Below are positions 14,077 through 37,102 of a stretch of 37,102 nucleotides of DNA, piece by piece. The stretch lies in assembly GCF_001434575.1 (NCBI RefSeq), contig NZ_AZDA01000016.1, forward strand, positions 1 through 37,102. The letters run 5' to 3'. Numbering within the stretch: position 1 is the stretch's first letter; the number at the start of each line of letters is the position of its first letter. The notes beneath the pieces were generated by a model. It ran no database searches. It was not told the DNA's origin and saw nothing but the letters and a program-made list of their open reading frames with translations. Source of the stretch: Loigolactobacillus bifermentans DSM 20003 (GTDB lineage: Bacteria > Bacillota > Bacilli > Lactobacillales > Lactobacillaceae). A program made the position numbers and the translations under genes.

Positions 14077-14439
14077 TTAATGCCGCGGCATTGTTTCCGT
14101 TAAGCTGTAAAACTGCGATTTATCAGAAAAATCTGCCCGATATTGGCCGTTAAAACCAGCCTTTTGACCAATTTCACCTAAGACCAGCATTAATGCTTCT
14201 TGTTCTTTTGGAAAATAGATGTGGTCTTTAATGGCTGCATTACGAATATAGTTGATGAGCCGATTGACCCAAATCTCAGGCCGTTTGCTCGTTTCCAATT
14301 TGCGATAAACTTGTAGCAAAACATCGCGAATATCTAGCAAAGCTGCTGTTTGATCAGGCCGCTGAGCCAACAGTTGATACAGCGCGTGAATCGTCTGTCT
14401 AGCCGTAACACGCCATGCTTCAGTTTGTGATGTTCCCAT
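14077..14439 (-). CDS. EntA-type class IIa bacteriocin immunity protein
   Basis: Cytosolic four-helix protein of 120 residues in the enterocin A immunity family. Such proteins protect a cell from pediocin-like bacteriocins by binding the bacteriocin-occupied mannose PTS receptor. The C-terminal half carries family-like segments: VYRKLETSK, VNRLINYIRNAA, and the ending GQKAGFNGQYRADFSDKSQF, close to the enterocin A immunity protein as I recall it. The ATG follows TTTTAGGAGGTG, which is the end of a 98-bp repeat unit. No bacteriocin, transporter or sensor gene is visible nearby. It is downstream of the SPFH gene and probably in the same transcript. Confidence 0.82.
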   Translation of the reverse strand: MGTSQTEAWRVTARQTIHALYQLLAQRPDQTAALLDIRDVLLQVYRKLETSKRPEIWVNRLINYIRNAAIKDHIYFPKEQEALMLVLGEIGQKAGFNGQYRADFSDKSQFYSLTETMPRH

Positions 14440-14448
14440 TTTTGTGAC

Positions 14449-14645
14449 ACCTCCTAAAATCTCTAAGGTTAGATTTTGCTATCGCAAAATTTCACTTCGG
14501 AGGATTGCCAGTCTTGTGGGGGAATTTCACCCCGCAGGACTCATGGACCTCCTAAAATCTCTAAGGTTAGATTTTGCTATCGCAAAATTTCACTTCGGAG
14601 GATTGCCAGTCTTGTGGGGGAAATTCACCCCGCAGGACTTCATGA
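14449..14645 (-). repeat. 98-bp leader repeat array A (two units) before the immunity gene
   Basis: Two tandem units (14449-14546 and 14547-14645) differ at only about three positions. Read on the minus strand, each holds an ATG, a hairpin with GGGG/CCCC core, a CCTCC box, the hairpin ATTTTGC-GATA-GCAAAAT and a terminal GGAGG. The anti-SD copies (plus-strand GGAGG at 14597-14601 and 14499-14503) can pair with the SD copies at 14548-14552 and 14450-14454. The last SD is that of the immunity gene. The array fills the gap after the SPFH stop. Confidence 0.92.
14590..14643 (-). CDS. Mini-ORF in array A, first unit
   Basis: A 17-codon frame (MKSCGVNFPHKTGNPPK) starts 4-5 bases after AAGAGG and runs through the CCTCC box before stopping. 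In the second unit the corresponding frame is cut to five codons (MSPAG). Expression is not shown; the frame matters because translating it would disrupt the CCTCC/GGAGG pairing. Confidence 0.3.
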   Translation of the reverse strand: MKSCGVNFPHKTGNPPK

Positions 14646-18202: not shown

Positions 18203-18253
18203 TAAAAACTCTCCTTTTCTACAAATATTCTTATCAAACCTTGACAGCGGAAT

Positions 18254-18280
18254 ATTGTGATCGTGACTTAATATCACAAT
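18254..18280 (-). ncRNA. Candidate L19 leader hairpin
   Basis: Between the rplS promoter and start codon, ATTGTGA and TCACAAT pair around a 13-nt loop on the minus strand. L19 leaders with an autoregulatory hairpin are known in Bacillus relatives. I infer membership from position and structure, without having compared it to the family model. Confidence 0.45.
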
Positions 18281-31002: not shown

Positions 31003-32016
31003 CTATTCTGGTCGTTTTGCCAATTGATGTTCACTAAAATAAGTGACCACATCTTCAACCACATGTTGGGCTAACATATCACGAATTTGTTTGATCGTGT
31101 AATAAACTGCCTCTGGGCTAGCTGTGCCATGCGTTTTAACCACAGGCGCCTTTAAGCCGAGTAAGACGGCACCACCGTAACGCGAATAATCAAATTGATC
31201 CCGCATGACGCCAAGATCACTTTTCAGAAGTGCCCCGCCAATTTTACCTTTTAAGCCACTGTTCATAATCGTGCGCTTTAATAAACTTAAAATAGCCATG
31301 GCCGTGCCTTCAATTGACTTCAAAGCCGCATTACCGGTAAAGCCATCCGTGACGATCACATCTGCTACACCATTTAATAGCTCACGGGCCTCAATATTAC
31401 CAATAAAGTTTAATTCCGGATCACCTGCAAGCAACTGATAGGCCGCTTTATGGACCAAATCCCCTTTTTCTGGTTCAGTCCCATTATTCAACAAGGCAAT
31501 GCGTGGCTTTTCAATTTGACGCATGTTTTTAGCGTAATAGTTACCCAGCACTGCATACTGATACAAGTTTTCCGGTTTCGAGTCCGCATTCGCACCAATA
31601 TCTAAAATATTAAATTGACCGCCGGTTTTAAAATCTGGCATCGTGGGCATTAAGCCTGGGCGTTGAATCCCTTTGATCCGGCCGATAATGAATAAACCAG
31701 AAGCCAATAACGCACCGGTACTCCCTGCAGAAAAAATGGCATCGGCTTGGCCTTCTTTAACTGCACGAGCAGCCACGACCATAGACGCATCTTTTTTTCG
31801 ACGAACCGCACGAACGGGTTCTTCTGTATCCAAAATTTCTTCACTCGTCGGGACGACTGTTAACCGTGTGGCATCTTTAATTTCAGCTTGAATTTGTTGT
31901 TCATCACCATAAAGTAAAAATTCCAAATCTGAAAACGCATCTCGGGCACGTTCTACCCCAGCAATAATCGTTTGTGGGGCGTTGTCGCCACCCATTGCAT
32001 CAACGGCAATTTTCAT
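31003..32016 (-). CDS. plsX: Phosphate acyltransferase PlsX
   Basis: Enzyme of 337 residues that converts acyl-ACP and phosphate to acyl-phosphate for PlsY, the first committed step of phospholipid synthesis in Gram-positives. It begins MKIAVDAMGGDNAPQTII and contains FSAGSTGALLASG and VTDGFTGNAALKSIEG, all family-typical. The ATG is 6 bp after GGAGG, and that GGAGG is the end of the last unit of a 98-bp repeat array. Its translation may therefore be controlled by the array. It is followed by acpP. Confidence 0.96.
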   Translation of the reverse strand: MKIAVDAMGGDNAPQTIIAGVERARDAFSDLEFLLYGDEQQIQAEIKDATRLTVVPTSEEILDTEEPVRAVRRKKDASMVVAARAVKEGQADAIFSAGSTGALLASGLFIIGRIKGIQRPGLMPTMPDFKTGGQFNILDIGANADSKPENLYQYAVLGNYYAKNMRQIEKPRIALLNNGTEPEKGDLVHKAAYQLLAGDPELNFIGNIEARELLNGVADVIVTDGFTGNAALKSIEGTAMAILSLLKRTIMNSGLKGKIGGALLKSDLGVMRDQFDYSRYGGAVLLGLKAPVVKTHGTASPEAVYYTIKQIRDMLAQHVVEDVVTYFSEHQLAKRPE

Positions 32017-32063
32017 AAAAAACCTCCTAAGGTCTCTAGTGTTTATTTTGCTATCGCAAAATC

Positions 32064-32117
32064 TTATTTCCGGAGGATGACCAGTCTTGTGGCGTCAACC
32101 CACACCGCAGGACTCAT
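32064..32117 (-). CDS. Mini-ORF in array B, unit nearest plsX
   Basis: A 17-codon frame, MSPAVWVDATRLVILRK, starts three bases after AGGAGG. Its codons ATC CTC CGG contain the box complementary to the plsX ribosome binding site. It differs from the neighbouring copy by A5V and one silent change. Translation is not proven. Confidence 0.35.
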   Translation of the reverse strand: MSPAVWVDATRLVILRK

Positions 32118-32161
32118 GGCCCTCCTAAGGTCTCTAGTGTTTATTTTGCTATCGCAAAATC

Positions 32162-32215
32162 TTATTTCCGAAGGATGACCAGTCTTGTGGCGTCAACCCA
32201 CGCCGCAGGACTCAT
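32162..32215 (-). CDS. Mini-ORF in array B, outer unit
   Basis: A 17-codon frame, MSPAAWVDATRLVILRK, follows an AGGAGG that has no visible anti-SD upstream. It overlaps the CCTTC box that can pair with the next SD. The preserved frame between copies is suggestive but the sequences are too close to prove selection. Confidence 0.35.
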   Translation of the reverse strand: MSPAAWVDATRLVILRK

Positions 32216-32291
32216 GGCCCTCCTAAGGTCTCTAGTGTTTATTTTGCTGTCGCAAAATCTTATTTCACTTTTTAAATGGTTCGACCCTTAT

Positions 32292-36737: not shown

Positions 36738-36797
36738 AAAGGAAACAGCTCAGGCGCCAAATCATTTTTAATGGCAGCCAACTTGCAAGGAGGAACC

Positions 36798-36878
36798 ATG
36801 TTGCCTACGAGGGTAGTTGCGCCCGTAGGAATGGCCATCCTCCAAAATCAGATTTTGCGGAAGCAAAATAGACCTTAG
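36798..36878 (+). CDS. Mini-ORF in array C, unit one
   Basis: A 26-codon frame starting MLPTRVVAPVGMAIL follows AAGGAGG by 3-4 bases, with no visible anti-SD upstream. A one-base deletion after the CCTCC box, relative to unit three, shifts the frame so that it ends at the TAG of CCTTAG. Confidence 0.35.
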   Translation: MLPTRVVAPVGMAILQNQILRKQNRP

Positions 36879-36993
36879 AGAACCTAGGAGGTGCCATGTT
36901 TCTGGCGTGACGGTTTGCGTCCGCCAGAATGGACAACCAGCGAAAATAAAACCTTTGCGCAGCAAAGATACACAAGCGCTTTTAGCTGGTGCC

Positions 36994-37068
36994 ATGTTTC
37001 CATCGTGGCGCTTTTCGCCCGAGGGAATGGTCATCCTCCGGAAATCAGATTTTGCGATAGCAAAATAG
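36994..37068 (+). CDS. Mini-ORF in array C, unit three
   Basis: A 24-codon frame starting MFPSWRFSPEGMVILRKSD. It shares VILRK with the array B frames in the same position over the CCTCC box. Its own SD position is the altered GCTGGT of unit two, so initiation may be weak or coupled. Confidence 0.33.
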   Translation: MFPSWRFSPEGMVILRKSDFAIAK

Positions 37069-37102
37069 ACCTTAGAGAACCTAGGAGGTGCCATGTTTCC
37101 AT

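Follow-up and report, generated by a model that had tools for sequence, protein, structure and literature searches.

A repeat family placed at Shine-Dalgarno sites of Loigolactobacillus genes, with the plsX leader array as a probable member of a mobile, site-rebuilding type

Does the tandem array in the plsX leader of Loigolactobacillus bifermentans DSM 20003 (32023-32266; Tandem Repeats Finder: period 98, 2.5 copies, 97% matches) serve the control of phospholipid synthesis, or does it belong to something of wider occurrence? The array lies in a window of 37,102 nt (the whole stretch of DNA analyzed here), whose genes, named by eye, are ldh, lactate permease, rimM-trmD-rplS, ffh, ftsY, smc, rnc, acpP, plsX, recG, fakA, and asp23; its plsX shares 82-83% identity with those of Loigolactobacillus backii, binensis, and iwatensis. 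A preliminary description of the locus had proposed a relay in which a ribosome on a mini-ORF in one unit opens the Shine-Dalgarno sequence (SD) at the end of that unit, and the parts from which that relay was assembled are all present: the last unit provides the plsX SD, a box complementary to this SD lies inside a 17-codon ORF, the next unit repeats the scheme with a CCTTC box and a 17-codon ORF of its own (MSPAAWVDATRLVILRK followed by a stop), and the outermost half unit has no such box (table 1). The array is far beyond chance, yet it is a genome-wide repeat rather than one specific to plsX. We consider it probable that it is one member of a family of mobile repeats that insert at SDs and rebuild them.

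Table 1. Coordinates of the plsX leader array, its parts and the two further arrays in the window (+, strand as read; -, complement).
Feature	Position	Strand	Remarks
plsX, host gene of the insertion	31003..32016	-	
GGAGG, 3' end of unit 1 and plsX SD	32023..32027	-	6 nt upstream of the plsX ATG
Unit 1, plsX-proximal	32023..32120	-	101 bits; 3' end AGGAGG is the plsX SD
Right hairpin of unit 1, ATTTTGCGATAGCAAAAT	32045..32062	-	family-wide pairing in 96.9% of cells
17-codon mini-ORF of unit 1, MSPAVWVDATRLVILRK, stop included	32064..32117	-	minus-strand reading
CCTCC "guide" box of unit 1 (anti-SD of the preliminary description)	32072..32076	-	covaries with the 3' end family-wide
Left hairpin of unit 1, variable in sequence	32084..32113	-	family-wide pairing in 80.4% of cells
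Unit 2	32121..32218	-	98% identity with unit 1; apparent local duplication
Partial unit, 3' part (positions 51-98), 5' side missing	32219..32266	-	98% over 48 nt
Second array, two units	14450..14645	-	last GGAGG serves a 120-aa ORF (14077-14439) as SD
Third array, three units, the middle one GCTGG-ended	36796..37088	+	reaches the contig end

Rfam, searched over the whole window at the gathering score, has no match at the repeat arrays, and its sole match is the L19_leader before rplS (18222-18258, complement strand, 37.3 bits). Two further arrays of the same family in the window had escaped the preliminary description, as had at least 145 covariance-model matches genome-wide; the latter figure is a lower bound, 150 candidates having been scored, and a DNA search of the same genome gives 69 unit matches. 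The preliminary description had suggested searching related genomes with such a model, and the search returns matches in all eight Loigolactobacillus genomes (at least 145 in L. bifermentans, then 65, 41, 38, 23, 18, 16, and 10); the 65 belong to a complete genome (G005), and the matches in G001-G005 represent a divergent variant of the unit. Outside the genus, a DNA search found the unit in none of 52 genomes, and the covariance model under strict filters had matches among 395 sampled genomes only in L. bifermentans and in G362, a genome of another genus; no other Loigolactobacillus is among these matches, so that the congeners were either absent from the sample or lost to the filters. The G362 locus (L244) has four related units in one array with a period of about 197 bp, near a putative ABC transporter gene. 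Plasmid, phage, and viral-contig searches with the unit gave no match, and literature searches, judged by titles and the starts of abstracts, turned up no description of an SD-targeting repeat. The unit defines a non-coding repeat family of about 98 bp that has so far been found almost exclusively in Loigolactobacillus, and that this family is dispersed and placed in leaders is, in our estimation, close to certain.

Placement was scored in L. bifermentans for a sample of 57 array sites (48 segments, 122 units; a part of all sites), requiring a GGAG, GAGG, or GAAGG of the last unit 5-14 nt before the start codon of a same-strand ORF of at least 60 aa. Of the 57 sites read, 50 agree with this definition, the final unit ending in the SD of a co-oriented downstream ORF; of the seven remaining, one is cut by a contig end and six fall outside it (two GCTGG-ended arrays, L227 with an array that follows a T-run, two without such an ORF, and one with a 16-codon ORF). 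At one locus (contig C64:90247-90440), the ORF behind an array has a stop after 16 codons and resembles, by eye, a broken HTH gene. SD placement is found at 11/11 sites in L. backii (G006) and at 11/13 in L. iwatensis (G007), the remaining two being cut by ends; orthologous sites of these two species are counted once in each. The products of the host genes, named by eye from translations, include RpoC, GyrA, GyrB, AccC, FabF, AroD, SerC, TilS, and RadC in L. bifermentans and RsmA, UvrB, ThrB, and PflB in the congeners. The same unit thus precedes dozens of unrelated genes, and the notion of a device specific to plsX and phospholipid synthesis has to be abandoned.

Among arrays that begin with a complete unit, GGAG, GAGG, or GAAGG is present in the left flank of 35 of 44 in L. 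bifermentans (the flank of the other nine is not SD-like) and in 7/7 and 8/8 arrays of L. backii and L. iwatensis, respectively. Units also stand directly after terminator-like T-runs, instead of SDs, at C119:9224, C15:45668, L227, and C97:148015 of L. bifermentans, and three of these four end in GCTGG. In the window outside the arrays, counted against a hand-made gene list, 9 of 14 GGAGG lie 3-25 nt upstream of gene starts and four within genes, so that targeting of GGAGG would by itself already lead mostly to SDs; GGAG occurs 44 times, 11 at gene starts and 30 within genes, and for this shorter motif selection against intragenic hits would therefore have to contribute more. The variant in G005 has a similar left hairpin and a different right half and ends in GTAG (L214-L222, L240). 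An ORF of at least 100 aa starts 7-17 nt after this GTAG on the same strand in 8 of 10 stretches (L216 and L221 being the others), which suggests that the variant abuts or completes an SD without an AGGAGG of its own; by eye, no guide complementary to the unit end is seen in the G005 units.

The clearest record of an insertion is the rpoB-rpoC junction, which is empty in all seven congeners and contains exactly one unit after TAGGAGG in L. bifermentans, with the SD regenerated. The congeners read rpoB...AGGAGGTC(A/G)GC(T/C)AAGTGAT, with TAGGAGG in six and TAAGGAGG in one, and the L. bifermentans junction reads ...GACTAGGAGG, a 98-nt unit ending TTTAGGAGG, and TCAGCTAAGTGAT. Likewise, the unit is absent from the 70 nt upstream of plsX in all six congeners read (G001 left out), and by eye no such unit is seen in the gyrA leaders of five congeners or the accC leaders of three (the gyrA leaders of L. 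backii and L. iwatensis and the fabF leaders lie outside this comparison). Sites with a single unit usually have a gene-specific SD (GGAG, GGGAGG, AAGGAG, or TAGGAGG) as their left flank and mostly the consensus AGGAGG as their right end, C97:148015 being an exception. A left SD that varies beside a right end that is mostly constant speaks against plain target duplication, but a duplication keeps some probability because AGGAGG flanks the unit on both sides. Five L. backii/L. iwatensis pairs picked as possible empty sites proved occupied or partly deleted and display copy-number and deletion changes, with no clean insertion among them. We regard mobile insertion of the units as highly likely.

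How the arrays grew appears to differ between genomes. In the multi-unit arrays of L. bifermentans, 55 of 83 units have their nearest relative at another site (with up to 97% identity) and 28 have it in an array-mate, and so these arrays look largely like serial insertions. No unit of L. backii is closest to one elsewhere (12/13 to array-mates, one tie) and only two are in L. iwatensis (11/14 to array-mates, one tie); with 23/27 units closest to array-mates, local duplication or homogenization is indicated in these species. By the likeness of its sequences, the plsX array would be of this latter kind, an ordinary family member whose two full units look locally duplicated. Slippage or local duplication of an ancient leader, with no mobility whatsoever, would account for plsX units that are 98% alike, for the closeness of array-mates in L. 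backii and L. iwatensis, and for the copy-number differences between the arrays of these two species; however, it is hard to reconcile with the single rpoC insertion opposite seven empty congeners, with the 55 L. bifermentans units whose closest relative lies at another site, or with the unrelated host genes, and we consider it very improbable as the whole account.

In order, a unit consists of CCATG, a hairpin of variable sequence, TGGnCA, a guide of 5 nt (CCTCC as a rule), a second, short hairpin, and TTAGGAGG. Its ends (CCATG... and ...GGAGG) form no terminal inverted repeats, and the palindromes near both ends are two covarying hairpins. The named structure, which combines these hairpins with a stem between guide and end, was scored on an alignment of 74 units (55 from L. 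bifermentans and 19 from L. backii and L. iwatensis): 89.7% of cells are paired, compared with 81.4% after shuffling and 38-53% when slid, and 126 cells are double-changed, compared with 45 after shuffling and no more than 26 after sliding. Applied to the mixed alignment, RNAalifold gave only nine pairs and did not recover the guide/end stem, which was instead tested as part of the named structure. Compensatory hairpin changes are found in both copies when the uvrB arrays of L. backii and L. iwatensis are compared. As an indicator of whether the hairpins act in DNA or in RNA, strand preference points both ways: the left hairpin is lower on the antisense strand in 46 of 81 L. bifermentans units and on the sense strand in 23, and the preference is opposite in L. 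backii and L. iwatensis (sense strand in 30/32). In these two species, some units (L158, L160/L168, and L202) contain in their left part an insert of about 100 bp (CCA(G/C)TAGCAGTCC...GCGCTAGTGG), a further small repeat lodged inside the first.

The complementarity between box and SD that the preliminary description had noticed at plsX is a real, covarying feature of the family. Guide and end match at 4.57 of 5 positions, compared with 4.09 after shuffling (reached in 0 of 10,000 shuffles, a test that ignores the relatedness of units, those of one array not being independent), and the pairing is perfect in 93 of 141 complete units. Among these 141, the types are CCTCC/GGAGG (72), CATCC/GGAGG (23, with four of five pairs), CCAGC/GCTGG (14), CCTTC/GAAGG (6), and the rarer CCAGT/GCTGG (2), GCTCC/GGAGT (2), and GCACC/GGTGC (1), and 21 units fall outside the matched or CATCC/GGAGG types (e.g., seven with CCGCC/GGAGG). 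Two L. bifermentans loci show SD or guide variants: L230 has GGAGT with GCTCC, and the last unit of L225 has a divergent guide and an AAGGAG end. Describing the box as an anti-SD is apt insofar as its complementarity covaries, but the pairing persists where the 3' end is GCTGG and there is no SD.

Could this pairing nonetheless be regulatory? In erm-type translational attenuators, a leader ORF runs through an SD-complementary box, and the unit is built alike. A family that spread as a regulatory RNA leader, with the ribosome on the mini-ORF freeing the next SD, would be consistent with the covarying complementarity, with the presence, in most arrays, of an ATG 3-5 nt downstream of the SD, and with a mini-ORF that is open through the box in all 37 units of L. 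backii and L. iwatensis (frame +1, 28; frame +2, 4). In L. bifermentans, however, the mini-ORF is not conserved as in an attenuator: its frame extends past the guide in 60 of 104 units (frame +1, 74; frame +2, 79), and 40 of the 104, including the single rpoC unit, stop at codon 5 or 6, upstream of the box. The mini-ORF through the box thus holds as a description of the two congeners and for only part of the L. bifermentans units. The host genes (by eye, rpoC, gyrA, gyrB, plsX, aroD, uvrB, and thrB) share no common function, and the GCTGG-ended units retain the pairing without an SD.

Predicted folding weighs on both sides of the relay. At plsX itself, the pairing of SD and box assumed in the preliminary description has a predicted probability of 0.00 in all five windows. 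In four of the five minimum free energy structures, the SD is paired instead to the AGAGACCT immediately upstream, and in the fifth, that of the 321-nt window, to the AGAGACCT of the preceding unit. Across 36 folded sites, the median probability of SD-box pairing is 0.27, with heterogeneous values, and masking of the guide lifts the median predicted openness of the SD from 0.235 to 0.415, which is about the level of element-free leaders (0.43) and speaks for the relay. Taken together, the early stops in L. bifermentans and the folding at plsX and the 36 sites make a relay unlikely as the general function of the family here, and we judge spread through such a function to be improbable, although a relay could soften the effect of an insertion in some leaders.

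A related proposal, which we find rather doubtful, treats the relay as a by-product that makes insertion harmless: the guide/end pairing would serve mobility, and translation of the mini-ORF would melt the resulting stem. It is favored by the CCATG that follows the target SD in 97 of 107 complete L. bifermentans units and in 35/37 units of L. backii and L. iwatensis, and that leader-placed G005 units retain as well, and by a stop 5 nt past the guide being the commonest single case (29 units in L. bifermentans, 12 in L. backii, and 13 in L. iwatensis). Yet the early stops in 40 of 104 L. bifermentans units count against this proposal as well, frames +1 and +2 are there open more often than the mini-ORF frame, and CCATG is perhaps merely the end of the element. 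Among L. bifermentans units that bear the ATG, the mini-ORF is open through the guide in 32 of 52 that stand last in their array and in 24 of 45 that stand further inside. The composite view, a mobile element that finds the SD through an internal anti-SD guide, rebuilds it, and keeps it open by a built-in mini-ORF, falls in our estimate just short of an even chance.

We hypothesize that the unit inserts directly 3' of GGAG(G) within the SD of a gene and, by carrying its own terminal AGGAGG, would leave the gene with an SD near its start codon, so that insertion may be tolerated even in genes such as rpoC. The 3' end of the unit would then be a fresh target, from which head-to-tail arrays could arise. 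The guide pairs with the unit end and, by extension, may pair with the target; mobility might be single-stranded and IS605-like, with a non-autonomous unit served by an enzyme in trans. We hold an IS605-like mechanism with guide pairing only tentatively. Y1 transposases (PF01797) occur in two of the eight genomes of the genus and are found in neither L. backii nor L. iwatensis. Three candidate sources were considered and rejected: the IS200-type gene of L. bifermentans (L142, C119:54660-55017) looks frameshifted, and the unit profile finds nothing around it; the matches of the profile at an IS200-type fragment with stops (L143) are at chance level (E 1.3 and 20); and the IS605-type element in G003 has no likeness to the unit by eye.

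Mobility by another route, such as reverse transcription of the leader RNA, a tyrosine recombinase acting on folded DNA, or gene conversion in place of HUH/Y1 chemistry, strikes us as slightly less credible than the IS605-like route. It would suit the six of eight carrier genomes without a Y1 enzyme and the many arrays that open with a 5'-truncated unit; against it, no candidate enzyme is linked to the unit, and later deletions should likewise produce 5'-truncated units, since no more than the 3' SD has to be kept (as at asp23 of L. iwatensis, where just the 3' part of a unit is retained).

The unit resembles IS608-type elements, with their pairing of guide and cleavage site, in that a short internal guide reads the target in those elements (PMC7290912) and covaries with the end in the unit; the guide of the unit, however, is located about 9 nt upstream of the right hairpin, between this and the left one, and no transposase is tied to it. 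IS605-type elements and the palindrome-associated transposable elements (PATEs) derived from the IS200/IS605 group are described, in the parts of the accounts used here, as having no inverted repeats, near-terminal palindromes, and insertion 3' of a 4-6 nt guide-read target without target duplication (PMC3119063, PMC7290912). The unit shares with PATEs, as portrayed in those same parts, the absence of terminal inverted repeats, the near-terminal palindromes, the non-coding size, and the short target (PMC3119063, PMC7290912), and differs in its SD target, in a 3' end that regenerates the SD, and in its long head-to-tail arrays; because a related IS605-type transposon was not found, we do not file it as a PATE. 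The pneumococcal BOX, RUP, and SPRITE elements are likewise small structured repeats with many copies and a narrow host range, but they have terminal inverted repeats, BOX and RUP cause target duplications, and the part of that account consulted here makes no mention of SD placement (PMC3049150). The lack of terminal inverted repeats also separates the unit from MITEs, and the distribution of PF01797 given above provides no consistent RAYT (Y1) partner of the kind that marks REP/REPIN elements.

If our reading is correct, the family represents a mobile element that has the ribosome-binding site as its very target and renews this site with its own end, which would be a safe-haven strategy within genes indispensable to the cell and could allow invasion of the leaders of nearly any gene, essential ones included. 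The code linking guide and end (CCTCC for GGAGG, CCAGC for GCTGG, and CCTTC for GAAGG) makes this targeting directly testable, and the family indicates that core genes can have their 5' leaders rewritten inside a single genus.
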